From Succinivibrio dextrinosolvens (GTDB lineage: Bacteria > Pseudomonadota > Gammaproteobacteria > Enterobacterales > Succinivibrionaceae), in assembly GCF_011065405.1 (NCBI RefSeq), contig NZ_CP047056.1, positions 2,440,747 through 2,504,746 of the forward strand: a DNA stretch of 64,000 bases. Reading direction: 5' to 3'. Shown piece after piece: positions 26,606-38,438 of this stretch. Positions within the stretch are counted from its first letter, which is position 1, and every line of letters starts with the position of its first letter. The translations under genes and the position numbers were made by a program. Below the pieces are notes generated by a model. The model was not told where the DNA came from and searched no databases. It worked only from the letters and a program-made list of their open reading frames with translations.

Positions 26606-28755
26606 TGGCTGTTCTGGCAGTGTTTTTTTTGCCGGAATTCCGATCAGAAAAATAAAGCTTATTCCTAAAACTGAACTGGTGCTCCTCAGCTTTTGAAATG
26701 CTCTGTCTTACATTCTTGTCAATAATTATGACAGGATTTTTGCTCCCTTCACTATCTGGTTAAATTCCTGTGCTAAAATCCTATATAAAACAGTAAAGAG
26801 GCGCTTATGAAGAAAGATGTTTTACTATATACCGGTGGTGAGGACTTTGCTGAAATTATCAATGATGGTGCTTACTATGTTGATAAGACCCCTTATCTTA
26901 AAGATCTATTAACTACCGGAGCTATTAAAAATTCTCTTTTTATTCGTCCTCGCAGATTTGGCAAAACTCTTAATCTTGATTTGATCAGGCAGTTCTGCAG
27001 ACTCAATTACCAGAATCCCGGGGATAAATCCTATCAGCAGAAACTCTTTGTGGATAACGGCAGAAATTTTGCTGTTGCAGGTGATGATTACAAAGAATTC
27101 CGAGAAAAGGTTATGGGAGAATTCCCTGTTATCAGTATTTCTTTCAGAGCTGTGGAGGGGAATTTTTTCTATCAGGCTGTATCTCAGCTTATCTATAAAG
27201 TTGGACTGCTTTATGACGAGTTTGTTTTTCTGACTGAAAGCTCAAAGCAGGAGTCTGATGATATAGAGAAATTCAAAAAGAATAAATCCTTTTGTAAAGA
27301 CAAACAGGATGAAATGAATGATCCTCAAAATTTAAGCAGAGCAATATCAATTTTAGGTACAGCTATTCCTCAGATTGCCTCCATGCTGTACAAAGAGTAC
27401 GGACGTAAGGTTATTGTGATCATTGATGAATATGACGTTCCTCTGCAGAAAGCTGTTATCGCAAAAGAACCTTACTATGATGACATGCTCAGTATCATCC
27501 GAACCTTAAGCGGTAATATCTTCAAAAAAGACAATGAGCCATGGCTATACAAGGGAATCGTCTCAGGCTGTCTGCGTATTGCACATCAGAGTGAGTTCAC
27601 CGATGCCAATAACTTTACAACTTTTGGAATGAATGATGAACCATATACCGGTTTCTTTGGCTTCACAGAGGAAGAGACTCATAAACTCCTGGCTGACTGT
27701 GGTCTTTCTGAGAAAGAGAATGAGGTTAAAGAATGGTATGATGGCTACAGATTCGGAGATAAACACATCTTTTGTCCATGGAGCTTAATCAGCTACTGCT
27801 ATGCGGCAACTCAGAAAGACATCTATGCTCCTCAGCCATTCTGGGTGAACACCAGTGGTAACGATCTCATCACCATGTTCACAGACAACAGTATGGAAGC
27901 ACACAATGCAGAGAATATCGACAAACTGCAGAAACTTCTTGATGGAGAATCAATAGAAATAAGCCTAAAGGAATTTACCACCTATCCAGACCTTAGAAAC
28001 AGAGTAAGCTTTGATGTCTTTATGACCATGATGCTGCATACAGGCTATGTAACCTTTGCAGAAGATTCTGAGTTCACCGGCAAGGTAACTGTAAGAATTC
28101 CTAATCAGGAAGTGCTGGCATGTTTTAATGAGAAAAGAGAATATCTTTACGGAGAAGATAACCCATACTGGTACAATCAGGCTCTAAAGCTGGTGGATTT
28201 GCTCATGGTAAATAATACTGATGATGCACAGATGCTTATCAGCACCATGCTAAAGGAGTTTTTAAGTATCAGAAACACCGGAAATGAACTCTACTATCAT
28301 GGCTTTATGACCGGTATTCTGGGACTTGCTTCCGCAACAAAGAATTTTAGATATCTCGAGGAAATCGAATCCGGAACCGGTTTCTCTGATATTATCATTG
28401 ACAACTTTGATTCGGAAATAGCTTGTATTTTAGAGCTTAAAAGGACTGAAAAGCTTGAAGACTGCTATGATGCAGCTGATGATGCAACTAAGCAGATAAT
28501 CCAAAAAGATTATGCTGCGAAGTTTATTTCCTTAAGATATAAGAAAGTCTATGGAATAGGTATCGGCTTTGCTCAAAAGAGCTGCAAGATTGTTTCCCTT
28601 GGAAATCTGGTAGAAACTCCTGCTAATAAGTAAAGTTCAATTTTCTGGTTAAACCATCAGTCTCAATGATCATTACCTTATTTGCAACAGCCTCGTCCAT
28701 AACGCTCTAAGAGAAGATTTTGCTGATGATCACATAACTTAGATTATGTTAAATC
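26606..28755 (+). repeat. Tandem duplication, unit A (AAA/nuclease gene with flanks)
   Basis: A unit of about 2.15 kb including the leader, the whole gene and about 120 bases after it. It is repeated at 28767-30915. Leader sequences (from tggctgttctggcagtg to the ATG) match almost throughout. Confidence 0.9.
26807..28633 (+). CDS. AAA-ATPase-like / PD-(D/E)XK nuclease protein, copy A
   Basis: A 608-residue protein of the AAA-ATPase-like plus DUF1703 family, common in gut anaerobes. Residues 1-300 hold the ATPase: YYVDKTPYLKDLL, Walker A FIRPRRFGKTLNLDLI (about 48-63), Walker B VIVIIDEYDVPLQKA (about 203-217). The C-terminus is a PD-(D/E)XK nuclease with FSDIIIDNFDSEIACILELK (about 526-545), giving Asp and E-x-K. 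No function is established for the family; nuclease activity in defence or mobile elements is inferred. Its paralogue copy B follows 336 bases downstream. AAGAGGCG precedes the ATG. Confidence 0.9.
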   Translation: MKKDVLLYTGGEDFAEIINDGAYYVDKTPYLKDLLTTGAIKNSLFIRPRRFGKTLNLDLIRQFCRLNYQNPGDKSYQQKLFVDNGRNFAVAGDDYKEFREKVMGEFPVISISFRAVEGNFFYQAVSQLIYKVGLLYDEFVFLTESSKQESDDIEKFKKNKSFCKDKQDEMNDPQNLSRAISILGTAIPQIASMLYKEYGRKVIVIIDEYDVPLQKAVIAKEPYYDDMLSIIRTLSGNIFKKDNEPWLYKGIVSGCLRIAHQSEFTDANNFTTFGMNDEPYTGFFGFTEEETHKLLADCGLSEKENEVKEWYDGYRFGDKHIFCPWSLISYCYAATQKDIYAPQPFWVNTSGNDLITMFTDNSMEAHNAENIDKLQKLLDGESIEISLKEFTTYPDLRNRVSFDVFMTMMLHTGYVTFAEDSEFTGKVTVRIPNQEVLACFNEKREYLYGEDNPYWYNQALKLVDLLMVNNTDDAQMLISTMLKEFLSIRNTGNELYYHGFMTGILGLASATKNFRYLEEIESGTGFSDIIIDNFDSEIACILELKRTEKLEDCYDAADDATKQIIQKDYAAKFISLRYKKVYGIGIGFAQKSCKIVSLGNLVETPANK

Positions 28756-28969: not shown

Positions 28970-30915
28970 ATGAAGAAAGATGTTTTACTATATACCGGTG
29001 GTGAGGACTTTGCTGAAATTATCAACGGCGGTGGTTACTATGTTGATAAAACAGCTTATTTGAAAGAGCTTCTTATTACCGATGCTATAAAGAATTCACT
29101 CTTTATACGTCCTCGCAGATTTGGCAAAACTCTTAATCTAGATCTGATCAGGCAGTTCTGCAGACTCAATTACCAGAATCCCGGGGATAAATCCTATCAG
29201 CAGAAACTCTTTGTGGATAACGGCAGAAATTTTGCTGTTGCAGGTGATGATTACAAAGAATTCCGAGAAAAGGTTATGGGAGAATTCCCTGTTATCAGTA
29301 TCTCTTTTAGAGGTGTTGAAGGGAATACTTTCCAATCTGCTGTATCAGGCCTATTAGGAATAATAGCAGAACTCTACGAGCGTTTTTTGTTTCTTCGAGA
29401 AAGTGTTAAGCTCTCAGAAGAGAGAATAAAACAGTTCAATGAGATATATTCTTTCTGTACCACCAAATATAAAAAACTTTCAGATCCCGACAACTTGAAT
29501 GAAGCTATTGTTATATGTGGTTCATTCCTTGCAACCTTAGCAGAAATGCTCTACAGAGAATATGGAAGAAAGATCCTTGTCATAATTGATGAATATGACG
29601 TTCCTCTACAGAAGGCTGTAATTGCAAAAGAACCTTATTATGATGACATGCTTGAAATCATCAGAAAAATCAGCGTGACGACTTTCAAGCAAAATCCAGA
29701 TCCATGGCTTTACAAAGGAATCGTCTCAGGTTGTCTGCGTGTAGCTCATCAGAGTGTTTTTACTGATGCCAATAACTTTACAACTTTTGGAATGAATGAT
29801 GAACCATATACCGGTTTCTTTGGCTTCACAGAGGAAGAGACTCATAAACTCCTGGCTGACTGTGGTCTTTCTGAGAAAGAGAATGAGGTTAAAGAATGGT
29901 ATGATGGCTACAGATTCGGAGATAAACACATCTTTTGTCCATGGAGCTTAATCAGCTACTGCTATGCGGCAACTCAGAAAGACATCTATGCTCCTCAGCC
30001 ATTCTGGGTGAACACCAGTGGTAACGATCTCATCACCATGTTCACAGACAACAGTATGGAAGCACACAATGCAGAGAATATCGACAAACTGCAGAAACTT
30101 CTTGATGGAGAATCAATAGAAATAAGCCTAAAGGAATTTACCACCTATCCAGACCTTAGAAACAGAGTAAGCTTTGATGTCTTTATGACCATGATGCTGC
30201 ATACAGGCTATGTAACCTTTGCAGAAGATTCTGAGTTCACCGGCAAGGTAACTGTAAGAATTCCTAATCAGGAAGTGCTGGCATGTTTTAATGAGAAAAG
30301 AGAATATCTTTACGGAGAAGATAACCCATACTGGTACAATCAGGCTCTAAAGCTGGTGGATTTGCTCATGGTAAATAATACTGATGATGCACAGATGCTT
30401 ATCAGCACCATGCTAAAGGAGTTTTTAAGTATCAGAAACACCGGAAATGAACTCTACTATCATGGCTTTATGACCGGTATTCTGGGACTTGCTTCCGCAA
30501 CAAAGAATTTTAGATATCTCGAGGAAATCGAATCCGGAACCGGTTTCTCTGATATTATCATTGATAGCTTTGATAACAAAACATCCTGTATCTTAGAGCT
30601 GAAAAAGACTGAAAATCTTGAAGACTGTTATGATGCAGCTCAGGCTGCAACTAAGCAGATAATTCAAAAGGACTATGCAGCAAAATTTATTTCCAGAAGA
30701 TATAAGAAGGTCTACGGAATAGGTATTGGATTTGCCCAAAAGAGCTGTGAAATTGTTTCCCTTGGAAATCTGGTAGAAACTCCTGCTAATAAGTAAAGTT
30801 CAATTTTCTGGTTAAAACATCAGACTCAATGATCATTACTTTATTTGCAACTGCCTCGTCCATAACGCTCCAAGAGAAGATTCCGCTGATGATCTCATAA
30901 TTTATCTTATGTTAA
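28767..30915 (+). repeat. Tandem duplication, unit B
   Basis: The second unit, offset by about 2,161 bases from unit A. Both leaders contain ttgccggaattccgatcag and the same hairpin; both 3' flanks contain cctcgtccataacgctc. Confidence 0.9.
28970..30796 (+). CDS. AAA-ATPase-like / PD-(D/E)XK nuclease protein, copy B
   Basis: The 608-residue paralogue of copy A, with the same domain order, Walker A (PRRFGKTLNLDLI), Walker B (ILVIIDEYDVPLQKA) and nuclease motif (FSDIIIDSFDNKTSCILELK). Divergence is confined to blocks: residues about 15-45, about 112-265 between the Walker motifs and beyond, and the last 80. Between those, about 150 bp (29150-29301) and about 800 bp (29765-30564) look identical at DNA level to copy A. 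This points to a duplication followed by gene conversion. Confidence 0.9.
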   Translation: MKKDVLLYTGGEDFAEIINGGGYYVDKTAYLKELLITDAIKNSLFIRPRRFGKTLNLDLIRQFCRLNYQNPGDKSYQQKLFVDNGRNFAVAGDDYKEFREKVMGEFPVISISFRGVEGNTFQSAVSGLLGIIAELYERFLFLRESVKLSEERIKQFNEIYSFCTTKYKKLSDPDNLNEAIVICGSFLATLAEMLYREYGRKILVIIDEYDVPLQKAVIAKEPYYDDMLEIIRKISVTTFKQNPDPWLYKGIVSGCLRVAHQSVFTDANNFTTFGMNDEPYTGFFGFTEEETHKLLADCGLSEKENEVKEWYDGYRFGDKHIFCPWSLISYCYAATQKDIYAPQPFWVNTSGNDLITMFTDNSMEAHNAENIDKLQKLLDGESIEISLKEFTTYPDLRNRVSFDVFMTMMLHTGYVTFAEDSEFTGKVTVRIPNQEVLACFNEKREYLYGEDNPYWYNQALKLVDLLMVNNTDDAQMLISTMLKEFLSIRNTGNELYYHGFMTGILGLASATKNFRYLEEIESGTGFSDIIIDSFDNKTSCILELKKTENLEDCYDAAQAATKQIIQKDYAAKFISRRYKKVYGIGIGFAQKSCEIVSLGNLVETPANK

Positions 30916-31065: not shown

Positions 31066-32094
31066 TCAAGATTCTTTTACTAATACTTCCGTAATTGCTT
31101 GCGCAATTTCAGATCCTTCTTGATCTTTTTCAAGCCATAACCAGTTTCCAACAACATTTGCCTCAAGAAATACAATCCTTCCATCTGTGTTTTCTACGAG
31201 ATCAACTGCTGCAAAGTTAATCCCCCAGAATTTGAGTAGCGAGGTTAGCTTTTCCCTGATTTCTTCAGGAAGGTTTGATTTTTCTGTTCTAAGCTCGTCA
31301 ACTCGTCTAAAGTCAATTTTTGACTTTTGATTTTCCTGAGAGAAAATTCTATAGGTAAAGCATTTATCACCAATGATTGTCACTCGTAATTCTGATTTCT
31401 TGCATAAAGCTTCCTGAAGCAGCACGGGGGCACTGCCAGGACCAAAATATTCTTCAAGAGAAGCTAAATCAGAGGCGTTTACAGGACTTGTATAAAATCC
31501 TTTAAACTCCACATCGTTGTAACCATTTTCATTTACAAATGGGTTTTCATCAATCAGAGATATATCACTTAACTGCTTGATGATAATCTTACCGTTGTGC
31601 TTCTCGTAAAAAGATTTAACATTATCAGCACAGTTGGTAACGAGTGTGTCAGGGACATCAAGTCCATGAGCAATGGCGCACTGATGCTGATAAATCTTGT
31701 TATCAACCTTATCTTCAGTATAAGGATTGTTAATCCATCTGCAGCATTGTGGAATCAGAGAGAAAAAGCCTCGTACAGTAGAACGGATTTCAGCGGTTGC
31801 AAGCTGGTCTGATGTAGAACTGCTGTCTTTTGCCTTTGGAATATAAAAACTTCTGCAGTAAACCCCTTCAATATCATCCGATGAAACAATGTCCCCATTC
31901 GGGAATATCAGTTTTCCTGATGTACTGGAGATATCTACAAGGATTTTTTCTCTTCTAGCTTCTGTTTCGATTGAACCATACTCATCAAATAAGAAAGCAG
32001 GATCGAAGCGTTTTACCTTCTTTCCATATTTTTCAAGATAATACAGGACAGCATCAGCATGAACATCCTCGTCAATAGCAAGAATTAGATACAT
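31066..32094 (-). CDS. MvdD-like ATP-grasp ligase
   Basis: A 342-residue ATP-grasp enzyme. Residues 1-100 are the N-terminal domain (MYLILAIDEDVHADAVLYYL, GVYCRSFYIP, ATAEIRSTVRGFFSL, WINNPY). The nucleotide site is KIIIKQLSD, LLQEALCKKSELRVTIIGDKCFTYRI, and the metal site is NFAAVDLVENTDGRIVFLEANVVGNWLWLEKD. That last pattern, FLEAN-x-x-G-x-W-x-W-L-E, is characteristic of ligases that modify ribosomal peptides (MvdC/MvdD, graspetide type). It should form an ATP-dependent amide or ester bond on a peptide or protein. It is last in a six-gene operon, 26 bases after the JAMM gene. Confidence 0.85.
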   Translation of the reverse strand: MYLILAIDEDVHADAVLYYLEKYGKKVKRFDPAFLFDEYGSIETEARREKILVDISSTSGKLIFPNGDIVSSDDIEGVYCRSFYIPKAKDSSSTSDQLATAEIRSTVRGFFSLIPQCCRWINNPYTEDKVDNKIYQHQCAIAHGLDVPDTLVTNCADNVKSFYEKHNGKIIIKQLSDISLIDENPFVNENGYNDVEFKGFYTSPVNASDLASLEEYFGPGSAPVLLQEALCKKSELRVTIIGDKCFTYRIFSQENQKSKIDFRRVDELRTEKSNLPEEIREKLTSLLKFWGINFAAVDLVENTDGRIVFLEANVVGNWLWLEKDQEGSEIAQAITEVLVKES

Positions 32095-32120
32095 TTAATA
32101 AACTCCGATGGTTACTGCTT

Positions 32121-32597
32121 TCATTTGTTATCTATAACCTGATACTCAACTCTGAAAAGGTCAGGACTGATTTCATCTTCTTTAAGATTTTCTATTTCTA
32201 CATCGAAATAGTCATCCAAAATGGCTATATAGTTGCGGTATAGGATTGAAGGAAATCCCTTAAATTCAACTGCAGTTCTGTATAGTCTCTCGTGTAGTTC
32301 CAAATGGAAATCTGTCTTTTTTACCACCAGAATCCTGTCATCTGCAAATAAGGCAGCGAAAAGCGCTTTAGAAATAAAAAAACAAATCCAGTCATCAAAT
32401 GACATCATAAGCTTGCCTGACGGATGTGAGTGCCAGATAAAATCACTGCTATCGTCAACTCTTGCGGTATGCTTATCTCCACAAGAGAAAGAAAAAGAGC
32501 CATCATTAAAAATGGCTCCGGAACACTCAGTTTTCTTATCTAAAACTTTTGATTTTATGTTAAATAGTACAGACAGATGTTGCTCTGTTAGCCTCAT
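32121..32597 (-). CDS. JAMM/MPN+ metallopeptidase-like protein
   Basis: A 158-residue protein with a perfect JAMM zinc signature, H-S-H-x7-S-x2-D: His56, His58, Ser66 and Asp69 (IWHSHPSGKLMMSFDDW). Glu24 may be the upstream catalytic acid. JAMM enzymes remove ubiquitin-like or other isopeptide-linked tags; bacterial examples include the Cap3 protein of CBASS and PRTRC protein A. It is flanked by the 86-residue E2-motif protein and the ATP-grasp ligase, which suggests tag removal or maturation in the same pathway. The activity is inferred from motif and context. Confidence 0.75.
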   Translation of the reverse strand: MRLTEQHLSVLFNIKSKVLDKKTECSGAIFNDGSFSFSCGDKHTARVDDSSDFIWHSHPSGKLMMSFDDWICFFISKALFAALFADDRILVVKKTDFHLELHERLYRTAVEFKGFPSILYRNYIAILDDYFDVEIENLKEDEISPDLFRVEYQVIDNK

Positions 32598-32621
32598 CTA
32601 CTTTTCCTTTATAAACTAAAG

Positions 32622-32882
32622 TTAATGACCAACTCTTCTATCGGTCTTGCCTTTTACATTTTTCGCTGGTACCCATTTTCCCGAAGGAGTTCGGTGCGCT
32701 GGGACATTGTGTCCAACAGTGTGAAAATTTGTGTAGGCTTTTCTGGTTACCCCATTCCAGCATAAAGAACCATCCTCAAAAACATTCATCTGTTTGTCTG
32801 AATTAAAATGAATCGTTGGAATATCAACAGGAGCTTCATTAAGCTTCGATGCAAACCTGTATAAAAAAGGAGTTTTACTCAT
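32622..32882 (-). CDS. Small protein with E2-like active-site motif
   Basis: An 86-residue protein I cannot assign with certainty. Residues 33-41 read NVFEDGSLC; in ubiquitin-conjugating enzymes the segment with the catalytic Cys is typically P-N-V/I-Y-x-D/S-G-x-I/V-C, and prokaryotic E2-like proteins of the PRTRC type have N-V-Y-x-S-G-x-V-C. Cys41 would be the thioester Cys. It is shorter than any complete E2, and the basic C-terminus (GKWVPAKNVKGKTDRRVGH) is unusual. It could instead be the substrate peptide of the ATP-grasp enzyme. It starts 2 bases after the TerB-like gene. Confidence 0.6.
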   Translation of the reverse strand: MSKTPFLYRFASKLNEAPVDIPTIHFNSDKQMNVFEDGSLCWNGVTRKAYTNFHTVGHNVPAHRTPSGKWVPAKNVKGKTDRRVGH

Positions 32883-32884
32883 AG

Positions 32885-33322
32885 CTATTCTCCTGTTTCC
32901 AGATTGAACTTTAAATTAGGTTTATTCGCTACTGCTGCTAACAAAGCCAAACTTGCAAAAATTGGATCTAAACCAAAAGCCTCTGTTAATAAATGGATTA
33001 CCTCAACTTCCCCATAAGAGACTTCACCATCACTTACAATGATTGTTGCAAGATCTTTTAGTACCTCAAAGCTGTCGATACCTTCCAACTCAAGATTGCC
33101 AAGAGATATTTCTTGATCAGTAGCGTCTGTATGTTCTTCATCACTGGCATCAATGAAAGAATCTAGGTATTGCTTAATTAAGGTTTCTCCTTCAAACCAG
33201 TCAAGTCCGTATTTTTCAAAAAGGACTTTTGCTGAATCAAGCTCTGAAAACTCAACTTTCCCATCAGCAAAAATCACAAAAGCACACGCTTTTGCAAGAT
33301 TGTTTAATGTTTCTGTAGACAT
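32885..33322 (-). CDS. TerB-like helical protein
   Basis: A 145-residue all-helical acidic protein with two copies of a TerB-type motif: FVIFADGKVEFSELDSA and TIIVSDGEVSYGEVEVI, each D-G-x-V-x-x-x-E, a probable metal-binding turn. TerB domains occur in tellurite/phage-related stress operons alongside ATP-grasp enzymes and NTPases. Here it lies 9 bases after the KAP NTPase and 2 bases before the E2-motif gene. Its role may be to bind metal or act as a membrane-side adaptor; this is inference. Confidence 0.7.
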   Translation of the reverse strand: MSTETLNNLAKACAFVIFADGKVEFSELDSAKVLFEKYGLDWFEGETLIKQYLDSFIDASDEEHTDATDQEISLGNLELEGIDSFEVLKDLATIIVSDGEVSYGEVEVIHLLTEAFGLDPIFASLALLAAVANKPNLKFNLETGE

Positions 33323-33331
33323 ATTGCTTCC

Positions 33332-35323
33332 TTAATTTACTTCGCTAGTCCAGGATAAAGGAACATTTCCTGTCAGACGCTGATACTCATCAGAGACAAA
33401 TTTCATATTCTCATCTGTAATTTTATCTGGGTCTTCAGTCTGAGTAGGAGTACTTCTCTTTACTTCATTCACAACCGAGAAGAACCCGCCTGTTTCATTA
33501 AAGATCATAAATCTGTCTTTGCGATCCTTTGGTCTATCCCTAAAGTCAATCTGGCATAGCATTGCTATTGCCTTACCCTGTGTTGTGCATGAAACAGTGA
33601 TTAGACGGTTCTCGCTGTCATAGTTGATGATCAGATTCTTTGGTGAATAGCTATGGAAGAATCTCTCCATAAATTTGCTTGCATTGTCTCTGATTGTGGA
33701 TCCATAACCAGCGTCTTTTAATGAGCTTAAAAATTCTGGTAGAGAGCCCTGATCACGGCGAAGTTTCTGATCTTCATCCGAGGTTGCAGAAGTAACAGAG
33801 GTAAAATCGGTTATTAAGGAGATATAATCAGCAGTAGTAGACAGATTTGTTTCACCTTTTCTCTTCTTATTATCAACAATCAATTTAACCAGCATGGAGA
33901 GAAATCTACCGATATTGTTAACACGTTTTCTCATCCAGATATCTTTTGAGACAATTGATTCAAGCATAAAATCTGAAGGATCAAGATATATAGGAATCTG
34001 ATTTGAATTTCCTTCTGATTCTTCACCATCATCGGAAGAAACTGCGTTGCTGCCCAGAGAGGTCCATTTAAACAGGTCAGGTTCAGATATTAGGTTTTCA
34101 TAAAGGATTGGATATGAAACCTGAGCACAGACCATAGCAAATAGAAGTTTAAAATAAAGCTTTATATCCTCCTTATCACCTGCAAGGTCAAACTTAATAT
34201 TAGAATTTTCTGAGTAAAGCTTTTTCATCTTAGTAACACTTATCTCTCTAACCAAAGATAATGTGTTAAGCATTCTTTTGATAGCTCTTGGATTGGTCCC
34301 ACATGTTTCTATTGTCATAGAATTCAAATCTGAAATAATTTCGTTTAGCATATTTTCAGACTCGGTCTTTGAACCTGTGTAACAGATATTTTTTAAGCCA
34401 TCCTTTAGATAGTTGTCTATTTTGTACTGACTTACTGGTAATCTGAATGACAATTGGATAATCTTGTCAAAGAAGGAACGGTATTCTCGTTCATTCTCTT
34501 CTGTTTTTTTACCAAACCGCTTTTCAAGACCTTTAATAACTACTTCATAATCGATTGCCAGAATAAATATGCAGTTGTTAACCTCGAACAGATTCTTCAT
34601 CAAGGACAAAATCTGTACTGCAACAGGAGGGTCAAGTCTATCCAGATCATCTACAAAGAATATAAATCCTTTAAAAGGAGATGACTGCTTGAGTGTCTTT
34701 CGATACTCTGTTATTTGACGCTTAAAATCAATAATTGCCTTCTGCAGCTCATTTCTGAAGAAATCAGGATCATGCTGTTCAGGAATATTGTTTCCATTGC
34801 CGCCAAGCATATTGTCAATTGAATTAGGATTAGCCCCCATAAAACCTAAACCAACTTTTGTTGTAGCAACGGCGGCGAATCTTAGGGCACCTAAAAGTCT
34901 TGAGGCTATAACCTTAGAATTAGCATTATCCTTAAGATAGGTTGATACCTGCTGAGTAATCTGAGAGGTGATTCCCTGAACTATTGAAACAAGAGATTCT
35001 CTCTCGTCTTTCATCAAAGAATACTGCCAGGTATTAACCCATACGCCTAAATAAGGAAAATCATCTTCAGAACGTTGATCAACATAATTTTCATCACTGA
35101 ATTTGCAGATGGTTCCATAGTTAAGACATAGCTGGCCTGCAATCTGATTCATAAGAGAGGTTTTTCCACTGCCCCATTCCCCCTGCAGAGCTATGGTGGT
35201 AGGCATCTGGGCATTGTTAATAAACTTAATCAATGCAGAAACATATGAACTCTGTTCAAGTGTATCAACAGCATTAGGTGGTAATGGAATATCGGTTAAA
35301 TTAGAGAATAATTGCTGTTCCAT
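33332..35323 (-). CDS. KAP-family P-loop NTPase
   Basis: A 663-residue NTPase. Walker A is LQGEWGSGKTSLMNQ (residues 46-60); Walker B is FIFFVDDLDRLDPPVAVQIL, typical of KAP NTPases (V-D-D-L-D-R). VWVNTWQYSL and NPRAIKRMLN are further KAP hallmarks. A hydrophobic segment near residue 150 (GALRFAAVATTKVGLGFMG) may be membrane-associated, as in many KAP proteins. KAP NTPases occur in several anti-phage systems. GAGGAATT precedes the ATG, 15 bases after the upstream gene. Confidence 0.92.
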   Translation of the reverse strand: MEQQLFSNLTDIPLPPNAVDTLEQSSYVSALIKFINNAQMPTTIALQGEWGSGKTSLMNQIAGQLCLNYGTICKFSDENYVDQRSEDDFPYLGVWVNTWQYSLMKDERESLVSIVQGITSQITQQVSTYLKDNANSKVIASRLLGALRFAAVATTKVGLGFMGANPNSIDNMLGGNGNNIPEQHDPDFFRNELQKAIIDFKRQITEYRKTLKQSSPFKGFIFFVDDLDRLDPPVAVQILSLMKNLFEVNNCIFILAIDYEVVIKGLEKRFGKKTEENEREYRSFFDKIIQLSFRLPVSQYKIDNYLKDGLKNICYTGSKTESENMLNEIISDLNSMTIETCGTNPRAIKRMLNTLSLVREISVTKMKKLYSENSNIKFDLAGDKEDIKLYFKLLFAMVCAQVSYPILYENLISEPDLFKWTSLGSNAVSSDDGEESEGNSNQIPIYLDPSDFMLESIVSKDIWMRKRVNNIGRFLSMLVKLIVDNKKRKGETNLSTTADYISLITDFTSVTSATSDEDQKLRRDQGSLPEFLSSLKDAGYGSTIRDNASKFMERFFHSYSPKNLIINYDSENRLITVSCTTQGKAIAMLCQIDFRDRPKDRKDRFMIFNETGGFFSVVNEVKRSTPTQTEDPDKITDENMKFVSDEYQRLTGNVPLSWTSEVN

Positions 35324-35338
35324 GATAATTCCTCTTTA

Positions 35339-37996
35339 TTACACAAAATCATCAAATAATAATGAAGTCTGAGCCGGTTCTTTTTTCTTATCAGCAGTTT
35401 CGGCGCTTATATTTCCATTTTGAATTTCGCTCTGGTTAGTTTCAGAAGAAGTTACGGAAGCTTCATCTTTGCTATCAGAAGGAGATGGACTTACTGCAGT
35501 GTTTGACTGTACTGACTGAGTTGACTCTACTGACGGTTCTGACTGTATTGACTCTTTTTTCTTTCTTGGCTTTTTTGGAACAGAGGCACTTTTATTTTCT
35601 GGTTCAAGCTCATCAACCTTCTGTTTGTATAGCTCCATCAGGTGTGCAACAATCTGCTCCTCTGTTGAGTCAGGTGCTAAGCCATAAAGTGATAAAACAG
35701 CCTTATCGTTGGCTTCGTGAGCTTTTAACAGTTCTATTGGCATTGTGAGCGGATCGTAAAGGTCAGCTAAGGAACTGTCAGGGTACAGTGCTCGTGCATC
35801 CAGGATAGCTTGTGCTGTTTTTATTACTTTTTCTTTTTGAGATTCGTTTACTTCTGGCCAGATGAAGTTGTTATAGACAATGTCTTTTGAGTAACGATAA
35901 TCACTCTTTAATCTTCCTGCTACGGTTCGCATCCAGGACATGTGAGTGGAGGAGACAATAACTCCAAATTCATATAGTGTTGCGTTTGGCACAATCAATG
36001 TTCCCATTACAGGAATTGTTTTACTATTTAGAAAACCAATTGGAACATAAACACGGCGTTCTGAAGATACGCAAGGAATAATTAAGTAATTTTCTGGATT
36101 TAACTGTTCTCTGAACAGCCAAGGCGTTTTTGCCAGTTTTAGAGATTCACTTGTTCCTGCTTCAAGTCTAGCTTTTTTACAAGCCTCAACTCTCTCTTTT
36201 ATTGGGGGTATTTCTTTTATTATTTGAGGAGGACAGTTAACAAGCCATAGACAATATCTTAATTTATTTTTAATAAATTCTTGAGCACCAACCATCTTCT
36301 TTATCCAAATTTTTGCTTCTGGATAGCTAGTAATAATAGATTTATACTCGTCAGGTTCTAGTTTTAGGTGGTTGTAATCGCAAGGTTTATTAGGGGCAAC
36401 CATATAAGGAACCTTACATAAAGGTTTACTCCTACTATCGATAAAAACATCAACAGCATCAACTAAATATCCGTTAATATTCTTAGCTTTTATACAATTT
36501 AATTTATTATCTTCTGTAATATAAATGTATTTATCCTTTTTATAATCAAAACAGCAGAAACCAATAATAACGCAGTGCACATGAGCTTCGTCTGTTGCTT
36601 CATTGCTCCATATAAAATCTTTATATCCGAATAAAATTTTTAGGTTATATAAGTTATACAAAGGTCGCCATAATTCACTAACTTGTTCTCCCTGTGTAAT
36701 ACTATTTGTTGAAACAAAAGAACAAATTATTTTTGTATCTTTTATATAATTAGCTGCTTTTACATACCATGCCGTTACATAGTCTAGGAGTCTGTAATTT
36801 GTATTAATCCCATCAAAAACAATATCCAAATCCTTTTTATTTTCCGGACTTGCGTATTTTGATCCAATAAAAGGAGGATTGCCCATTATGTATGTAAGCT
36901 CATAAGCAGGAACAACTTCATTCCAATCAATTCTTAATGCATTAGCGCAGCGAATATGGTTGTATGAAACTAAAGGCAGATAATCGAGATTGCTTTGAAT
37001 AATCAGTTCAGTTTCTTTTTTCATCTGCAAATCTGCAATCCATAGCGCAGTTTGAGCAACAGCAACTGCAAATTCGTTTATTTCTATTCCGTAGAACTGA
37101 TCAAGAGTTACATAGATAGGATGTTTTAATTCCTCGATCTGTAACGAGGTTTGTCCGCCATAGATTTCACGCATAACGTCATTTTCAAGACGACGCAAAC
37201 AGAGAAATGTTTCGGTTAGGAAGTTTCCACTTCCACAGGCAGGATCAAGGAATTTTAGATTTCCAAGTTCCTTTTGGAATTCCTTTAATCTATTGATCCT
37301 ATTTCCGTCTTTCTTAAAATTCTTAATACGATTAAATTCCTCTCGTAAATCTCTTAAAAAGAGAGGATCAATAACCTTATGAATATTATCCTGAGAAGTG
37401 TAGTGCATTCCTCCAGAACGACGTGTTTCAGGATTGATGGTACTCTCGAAAATTGCACCGAAGATTGTAGGACTGATGTCCTTCCAGTCAAATCCGATAC
37501 TGGCTTTGTTCAAAAGAAGATCTTTGAACTTATCATCAAGCTGTGGAATTTCAATTGGATCACTAAAGAGGTTTCCATTTACATAAGGAAATTCATTTAA
37601 TTTGTCACCAAGATTGACACTTCTATCTTCATATTTTGTATCTAGAACCTTGAATAAAAGCTGTAAAACTCCATTCATCTGTTCTGCTGGGGTATTGCTC
37701 AGATATTTATAGAATGCTGAATGTTCGCCAAAAAGGCCCGCATCCTCCGCATAAAGACAGAATGCCAAACGCACACAAAGCTTATTGATATCGCTCGAAA
37801 CTTTTGGATCATCAGGATTTTTGTATAGAGTTAAAAGGTGTCTATAGATATCTCCAATTAGGTTACCGGCATCAACAGAAAGTTTTTCTTCCTTAGTAAG
37901 AACACCTGCATCCTTTTTTACAAGAAAATCCAAACGATAGATTTCGTTCTCTAGATCCTCGAGCTTAATGACCTGCTCAGGAAGTTTGAGGTTCAT
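35339..37996 (-). CDS. Type IIG-like DNA methyltransferase/restriction protein (YeeA/MmeI-like), main frame
   Basis: An 885-residue frame with an N6-adenine DNA methyltransferase core. After a helical region, LKFLDPACGSGNFLTETFLCLRRLE is motif I, YGIEINEFAVAVAQTALWIADLQ follows, and TYIMGNPPFIGSK is the catalytic NPPF motif. The target-recognition region spans the C-terminal half; the last 120 residues are a low-complexity Ser/Lys/Glu tail. The conserved protein starts further upstream: the same frame is open through 38230 without a start codon, and the missing N-terminus is in another frame. As it stands the gene is broken or phase-off; Met at 37996 is internal. First gene of the six-gene operon. 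Confidence 0.88.
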   Translation of the reverse strand: MNLKLPEQVIKLEDLENEIYRLDFLVKKDAGVLTKEEKLSVDAGNLIGDIYRHLLTLYKNPDDPKVSSDINKLCVRLAFCLYAEDAGLFGEHSAFYKYLSNTPAEQMNGVLQLLFKVLDTKYEDRSVNLGDKLNEFPYVNGNLFSDPIEIPQLDDKFKDLLLNKASIGFDWKDISPTIFGAIFESTINPETRRSGGMHYTSQDNIHKVIDPLFLRDLREEFNRIKNFKKDGNRINRLKEFQKELGNLKFLDPACGSGNFLTETFLCLRRLENDVMREIYGGQTSLQIEELKHPIYVTLDQFYGIEINEFAVAVAQTALWIADLQMKKETELIIQSNLDYLPLVSYNHIRCANALRIDWNEVVPAYELTYIMGNPPFIGSKYASPENKKDLDIVFDGINTNYRLLDYVTAWYVKAANYIKDTKIICSFVSTNSITQGEQVSELWRPLYNLYNLKILFGYKDFIWSNEATDEAHVHCVIIGFCCFDYKKDKYIYITEDNKLNCIKAKNINGYLVDAVDVFIDSRSKPLCKVPYMVAPNKPCDYNHLKLEPDEYKSIITSYPEAKIWIKKMVGAQEFIKNKLRYCLWLVNCPPQIIKEIPPIKERVEACKKARLEAGTSESLKLAKTPWLFREQLNPENYLIIPCVSSERRVYVPIGFLNSKTIPVMGTLIVPNATLYEFGVIVSSTHMSWMRTVAGRLKSDYRYSKDIVYNNFIWPEVNESQKEKVIKTAQAILDARALYPDSSLADLYDPLTMPIELLKAHEANDKAVLSLYGLAPDSTEEQIVAHLMELYKQKVDELEPENKSASVPKKPRKKKESIQSEPSVESTQSVQSNTAVSPSPSDSKDEASVTSSETNQSEIQNGNISAETADKKKEPAQTSLLFDDFV

Positions 37997-38438
37997 GTCA
38001 TAGACACGAAATTCCTTGAAATTACAGGTTACAATATATTGTCCTTTCTCAAAAAAAGGAAGATTTTCATAGTACCGTTTTGCCTGTTCAAATGGTGTTA
38101 AGGCTGAACCGTCAGATTGAGGATATGATTTTGTAAGATCTTTTTTGGAGTCTTTTTGTTCAATAAGAACATTAGTGGAAGGTATAAATAGGTCAATAAA
38201 CTTTGTTCTTTCTGAGGAAGAATTAGGCTCTACCCCCAGTGCGCCTAATATTTATACTCTTTTCAAATTCCAGATTGAAATTGAAGGAGGACATTCCAAA
38301 TACGTTTTGAATAAGAGTTAACCAAAACTTTTGAGTATCACTTTTTTCGTATGATCCGTTTCGGTTTTCATTTTCCTTATTTCTGTTAATCCAGTACTGA
38401 CAGAACTCATGCAATGCAGTCTGCTGCTGAACATTCAT
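37997..38438 (-). pseudogene. N-terminal nuclease part of the restriction gene, out of frame
   Basis: The true start is the ATG at 38438 (MNVQQQTALHEFCQYWINR). That frame stops at 38223, just after a run of five G on the coding strand (bases 38233-38237). In the main frame the sequence continues as EPNSSSERTKF, IDLFIPSTNVLIEQK, FEQAKRYYENLPFFEKGQY and IVTCNFKEFRVYDMN into the methyltransferase. IDLFIPSTNVLIEQK is the Asp and E-x-K of a PD-(D/E)XK nuclease. With four G instead of five the whole would be one protein of about 1,030 residues. Confidence 0.85.

Follow-up and report, generated by a model that had tools for sequence, protein, structure and literature searches.

In the microviridin clusters (MdnA/MdnB/MdnC; MvdD family), a ligase of the ATP-grasp family is paired with a short precursor that bears a PFFARFL-type motif near its N-terminus. 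The leader forms an α-helix that activates the ligase, its Arg17 contacting Glu191, Asp192 and Asn195 of MdnC, and in known graspetides the nucleophiles precede the acidic donors (PMC7823629). A general graspetide leader rule, 'Phhx(1,2)h', is described as a proline, two hydrophobic residues and a later hydrophobic one (PMC8939145). Dependence on partner proteins is established for other graspetide synthetases; rosaritide (MirA/B/C) and corallotide have small cassettes with strictly co-occurring extra proteins, and the corallotide type is limited to one genus (PMC13097080). The JAMM isopeptidases AMSH/Sst2, Rpn11 and Pyrococcus JAMM1 share a motif and a fold that are also found in the locus described here. 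Cap3 of the cyclic oligonucleotide-based antiphage signalling system (CBASS) is a JAMM isopeptidase as well, and ATP-grasp and JAB proteins were reportedly predicted by Iyer et al. in 2009 to act in peptide tagging. The locus lies in a window of 64,000 nucleotides (G000:C1:2440747-2504746), the whole stretch of DNA that was analysed, from the 3.47 Mb genome (G000) of the gut bacterium Succinivibrio dextrinosolvens.

Four adjacent genes of this window encode a TerB-domain protein, an 86-residue protein (p86), a JAMM metalloprotease and an ATP-grasp ligase. They form a real and recurrent variant of the graspetide kind, seen in a single genus, and no description of this set of partners was found. 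With moderate confidence, the four genes are read as a genus-restricted, graspetide-like maturation cassette for a ribosomally synthesised and post-translationally modified peptide (RiPP), in which a carboxylate of p86, best Asp81, would be joined to Thr, Ser or Lys, the JAMM would trim the product or reverse the bond and TerB would be the acidic partner.

The cassette resembles the microviridin and MvdD clusters in the family of its ligase, in a short protein with a related N-terminal motif and in one leader-contact Asp. It differs from them in the basic, conserved, one-acid C-terminal part of p86, in the presence of JAMM and TerB, in having no recognised exporter and in a ligase that belongs to a clade of its own. 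Rosaritide and corallotide have as their extra proteins a PpiC-type isomerase, or else an oxygenase plus the further partner CorD (PMC13097080), whereas here they are TerB and JAMM. In contrast to the JAMM isopeptidase systems, no ubiquitin-like protein, E1 (ThiF) or E2 was recognised by Pfam in the seven open reading frames (ORFs) scanned.

The first-pass annotation knew of no described system with this gene set, and none was found in the literature; the core genes match no named PADLOC system. The literature search, in which subscription journals were thinly covered, returned no paper in which a graspetide locus includes a JAMM or TerB gene. The main text of PMC8939145 has no mention of jab, jamm, terb, m67 or kap, and that of PMC13097080 none of terb, jab or m67. 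An earlier JAMM case may hide in published surveys, because groups 26, 30, 32 and 40 of PMC13097080 have neighbouring proteases (in group 32 of diverse families, unnamed there) and ligase branches in PMC8939145 are linked to peptidases of several families.

A recurring four-gene unit

Six minus-strand ORFs, coding in order for MmeI-like, KAP, TerB, p86, JAMM and ATP-grasp proteins, are separated by exactly the 15, 9, 2, 24 and 26 bases first noted. The G+C content of 31066-38438 is 0.365, and that of the remainder of the window 0.399. Five or six of these genes had been proposed as the unit. The recurring unit is instead the four-gene set TerB-p86-JAMM-ATP-grasp, because the genome holds this set a second time without KAP or methylase.

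The arrangement is no chance one, since TerB, p86 and JAMM stand together at four loci in three genomes: the window, the second own copy (L006) and one locus each in the sister-species genomes G011 (L007) and G005 (L008). The ATP-grasp gene is present, and the unit thus complete, at three of the four; KAP and the methylase also accompany the unit at three of the four. The second copy, at about 1267-1269 kb, is 65% (TerB), 64% (p86), 54% (JAMM) and 64% (ATP-grasp) identical to the window set and is flanked by genes for an apolipoprotein N-acyltransferase and an Ion_trans protein. The Ion_trans gene looks resident, since its nearest homologue (59%, in G016) has no such set beside it. Within 18 kb around this copy there was no match to the KAP and methylase of the window, and neither the ORF list nor the six neighbours scanned by Pfam showed a recognised defence gene. 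G011 has the gene order of the window (methylase, KAP, TerB, p86, JAMM, ATP-grasp); in G005 the order is methylase, KAP, TerB, p86, JAMM and a second KAP, followed by the contig end.

Table 1. Coordinates of the genes of the locus within the window
Feature	Position	Strand	Basis
MvdC/MvdD-type ATP-grasp ligase (graspetide synthetase family), 342 residues, core gene	31066..32094	-	NCBIfam and PDB profile matches
JAMM (Prok-JAB) metalloprotease, 158 residues, core gene	32121..32597	-	motif E24...H56-S-H58-x7-S66-x2-D69
p86, likely graspetide-type precursor or substrate, 86 residues, core gene	32622..32882	-	PFLYRF at residues 5-10
TerB-domain acidic protein, 145 residues, isoelectric point 4.1, core gene	32885..33322	-	Pfam TerB 4.2e-7
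KAP P-loop NTPase, 663 residues, accessory in the window-type locus	33332..35323	-	Pfam KAP_NTPase 3.4e-37
methyltransferase and target-recognition portion of an MmeI-like type IIG protein, 885 residues, neighbour	35339..37996	-	PADLOC REase_MTase_IIG
N-terminal MmeI-like fragment, in another frame than the main ORF	38223..38438	-	REase_MTase_IIG profile

The genes are therefore adjacent in more than this one strain, within a single genus in what was searched. Homologues of p86 and TerB occur in the identical three of 56 family genomes, JAMM in those three among 97 relatives and ATP-grasp in two of the 56. Searches of 398 genomes of the phylum returned, besides the set's own matches, one p86 match with three internal stops (E 0.009) and one short JAMM match with a stop (E 0.008). 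Among 369 genomes of the class TerB matched its own copies only and ATP-grasp its own plus seven. Viral contigs gave no match to p86, JAMM or ATP-grasp (0, 0, 0), plasmids none to JAMM, TerB or p86, and phages none to JAMM; a genome-contig collection queried with JAMM returned one locus (L005), presumably the G011 contig again.

The ligase had matches in 72 plasmid and 2 phage records, 8 and 1 of which were examined as loci. At 17 ligase loci outside the genus, neither the JAMM motif (final pattern) nor any p86, JAMM or TerB profile match at E < 0.1 was found; as each profile was built from four sequences and the loci extend over 4.2 to 16 kb, remote or divergent partners would escape. A looser JAMM motif scan of 15 loci produced a single match, an 87-residue frame of L027, which was judged a chance hit. 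G000 and G011 each hold an ATP-grasp remnant that is truncated at its 5' end and lies next to the same gene in both (L025 7671-8462; L065 about 1500-2472); it is probably a decayed old third copy.

The ligase and its likely substrate

The call of an MvdD-like ATP-grasp enzyme was upheld. NCBIfam models of the MvdD/MvdC/SAV_5884 group match the ligase over a range from 3.2e-48 (GRASP_SAV_5884) through 1.4e-47 (MvdD) to 2e-45, all scores lying below the curated equivalog or subfamily cut-offs. Its profile matches MdnC in the PDB (5ig9) at 7.3e-28, the entries 5ig9, 5ig8, 7mgv and 7m4s spanning to 1.3e-21. Asp209 aligns with the leader-contact Asp192 of MdnC, and all three full-length copies keep it. 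A tree of 22 ligases groups the four from this genus in a single clade (100/100) with a branch length of 1.69, whose nearest kin the tree does not resolve.

All four p86 homologues carry PFLY[RK]F near the N-terminus (residues 5-10), which fits the general leader rule and lies within the first 30 residues. Among 506 ORFs scanned, only the four p86 genes contain the pattern, which was composed after sight of p86; it appears in 62-113 of 200,000 shuffles of each p86. A looser pattern matched further frames, mostly clearly unrelated. Because of this graspetide-type leader motif, p86 is the likely substrate of the ligase. Comparable leaders were seen in precursor-like ORFs beside other ligases (L026, of the microviridin type, L039 and L035); at the remaining loci outside the genus the leader pattern gave nothing resembling a precursor. 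L035 (6266-7792), an unannotated faecal 'Bacteriophage sp.' record, and L039 (4453-5789), an Agrobacterium plasmid, hold graspetide-like precursors, in which Thr and acid-rich motifs were seen by eye to repeat, beside MvdD-type ligases.

In all four homologues Asp81 is the sole Asp or Glu in the last 44 residues of p86. It comes after candidate Thr, Ser and Lys nucleophiles, which is the usual order, and for these two reasons it is the best candidate carboxylate. The protein is under purifying selection, with a ratio of nonsynonymous to synonymous substitution rates (dN/dS) of 0.065-0.154 in the four of six pairs that could be computed, dS being near or past saturation in three. A check of p86 for a double-glycine-like cleavage site found no GG; the nearest small doublet is Gly38 with Ser or Thr.

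The ATP-grasp ligase would bind the PFLY[RK]F segment of p86 and phosphorylate a side-chain carboxylate, most likely that of Asp81. An ester or isopeptide crosslink would then form between the activated carboxylate and a Thr, Ser or Lys residue in p86. The JAMM, as a putative zinc (iso)peptidase, would subsequently remove the leader or undo the crosslink, and the acidic TerB protein may partner the basic p86 as chaperone, sensor or inhibitor. The KAP and the type IIG restriction-methylase would be neighbours belonging to one locus type. The cassette probably works in the cytoplasm.

A number of observations weigh against a graspetide-like cassette. It is confined to one genus within what was searched. 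In the 88% complete genome G005, ATP-grasp was found neither at L008, where the contig ends, nor elsewhere, and no exporter or transporter was recognised. Of the leader contacts of MdnC, Glu191 corresponds to Ser208 and Asn195 to Ser or Asp212 in the ligases here. The C-terminal part of p86 has a single acid and is strongly conserved, whereas most known cores have several donors; single-bond cores are rare, yet were predicted earlier in two clusters (PMC8939145). Family libraries do not place p86, the sole Pfam row being PRKCSH_1, below cut-off. Comparison of p86 with the precursor-like L039/L035 by hhalign was also weak (probability 2.9%, E 0.015); the case for a leader is therefore built on the motif, its position and the gene context.

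The first-pass annotation had combined the ligase, the small protein and the JAMM into a unit that could tag and untag a protein or peptide. The unit recurs, whereas tagging of other proteins drew no direct evidence. Such reversible tagging is quite unlikely: the graspetide synthetase, standing in for E1 and E2, would attach a small folded p86 to lysines of cellular proteins by way of Asp81 or a different carboxylate, and the JAMM would remove it, in a Pup- or ubiquitin-like cycle. No target is known, and the leader motif argues for modification in cis. A fold search with p86 showed no ubiquitin-like fold, on a weak model (predicted local distance difference test score, pLDDT, 62.8 for the whole and about 90 for residues 61-80). 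The C-terminal part of p86 is, however, conserved like a functional domain, unlike a variable core; the lack of a recognised exporter also fits tagging, and JAMMs are known as isopeptidases (PMC300881). ThfB, a graspetide synthetase, can form a crosslink between two protein chains once they have assembled (PMC12291112), which leaves room for tagging of other proteins, although that example is engineered. The 'E2 motif' ascribed to p86 had to be abandoned, because no cysteine is common to the four homologues (Cys41 in the window and G011, none in the second own copy, Cys53-54 in G005). Pfam and PDB profile searches found no E2 family and no solved relative for p86.

The JAMM and TerB partners and the neighbouring genes

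The JAMM peptidase was called correctly from the sequence. The motif E-Xn-H[ST]H-X7-S-X2-D (defined in PMC300881) is intact, its residues are invariant among the homologues and the predicted structure has a JAMM-like fold, with weak Foldseek matches (best E 8.5e-3). The window protein has no Pfam match; Prok-JAB matches two of the four homologues, at best 7e-5. An ordinary graspetide cluster, with the JAMM as a mere dedicated leader peptidase, is unlikely, since the putative core of p86 is not variable, a transporter was not recognised and the literature search found no JAMM reported as a RiPP leader peptidase. In its favour, RiPP leader removal uses varied protease families and many graspetide clusters are without an identified one (PMC13039773, PMC8939145). 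Some graspetide groups adjoin proteases of diverse families (PMC13097080), and DRJAMM, a JAMM from a bacterium, reportedly cleaves MoaD-MoaE (PMC8832034). The dedicated proteases of graspetides are for the most part unidentified; that reported for microviridins, NosP, belongs to the M1 metalloprotease family (PMC13039773).

The KAP and TerB domain calls were both confirmed by Pfam, the TerB match exceeding the gathering score, and a TerB protein is present at each of the four loci. It is acidic (isoelectric point 4.1-4.4) and p86 basic (9.4-10.1), so that the two are oppositely charged at all four. This charge pattern could suit a toxin-antitoxin-like or defence function, in which a ligase-modified, harmful p86 would be held by TerB and freed by the JAMM on infection, with KAP as a further effector or sensor. 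Such a function is very unlikely. At E up to 1, p86, JAMM and ATP-grasp each match 0 PADLOC families, TerB has two matches at E about 0.03, and around the second copy the ORFs listed and the six scanned neighbours include no recognised defence gene. Consistent with defence are the methylase and KAP that adjoin three of the four loci, the match of KAP to the PADLOC candidate PDC-S20 (2.5e-26) and to PifA (7e-24), and the reported TerB-containing defence system Shango (PMC10250203).

Shango and Ter-type loci likewise have a TerB-domain protein in a defence-like neighbourhood. They differ in that no helicase, TerC, TerD or phosphoribosyltransferase was among the Pfam matches of the seven ORFs, except for the MmeI helicase-spacer domain. 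KAP resembles QatA of QatABCD (1.5e-22), but scores 80 bits where the cut-off is 600, and none of QatB, QatC and QatD was found among the seven ORFs scanned. The window KAP is 98% identical to that of G011 and 89% to that of G005. At L008 (3-995) a second KAP NTPase, 33% identical, directly follows the JAMM, the position that ATP-grasp holds at the other loci.

The restriction-methylation gene was recognised correctly as to family (MmeI methylase 3.9e-86; target-recognition domain 2.9e-66), but its frame is split. The main ORF covers positions 127-910 of 912 of REase_MTase_IIG (6.5e-302) and the fragment positions 7-54 (E 6.6e-4); between the N-terminal ORF, which runs to 38223, and the main ORF, which starts at 37996, the frame changes. 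At the break a run of G has five bases in the window and six in G011 (L007 5380-5390), and the N-terminal frame stops at this run in both, after 71 and 69 codons. The difference in length may point to slipped-strand variation. No intact single-chain type IIG MmeI with an N-terminal nuclease was found at these loci: the gene is split in the window and L007, and in L008 the contig ends inside it. Between the main ORF of the window and L007 5623-8268, identity is 96-100% before column 351, 42-60% over columns 351-700, the target-recognition region, and 100% at 701-800. Such an exchanged region between near-identical flanks is, judging from the alignment, specificity switching.

Two tandem 608-residue genes (26807-28633 and 28970-30796) are 87% identical and diverge at residues 101-200. 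The second is of the AAA-ATPase_like/PDDEXK_9 type, and a similar ORF flanks the G011 cassette (L007 12725-13891).

Meaning of the cassette

The cassette connects RiPP chemistry with the enzymes of ubiquitin removal. Were the tagging reading true, it would be a ubiquitin-like logic assembled from RiPP enzymes. With ligase, conserved putative substrate and JAMM in one compact operon, it offers a small expressible set in which reversal of a graspetide crosslink, or its transfer to proteins, could be tested.

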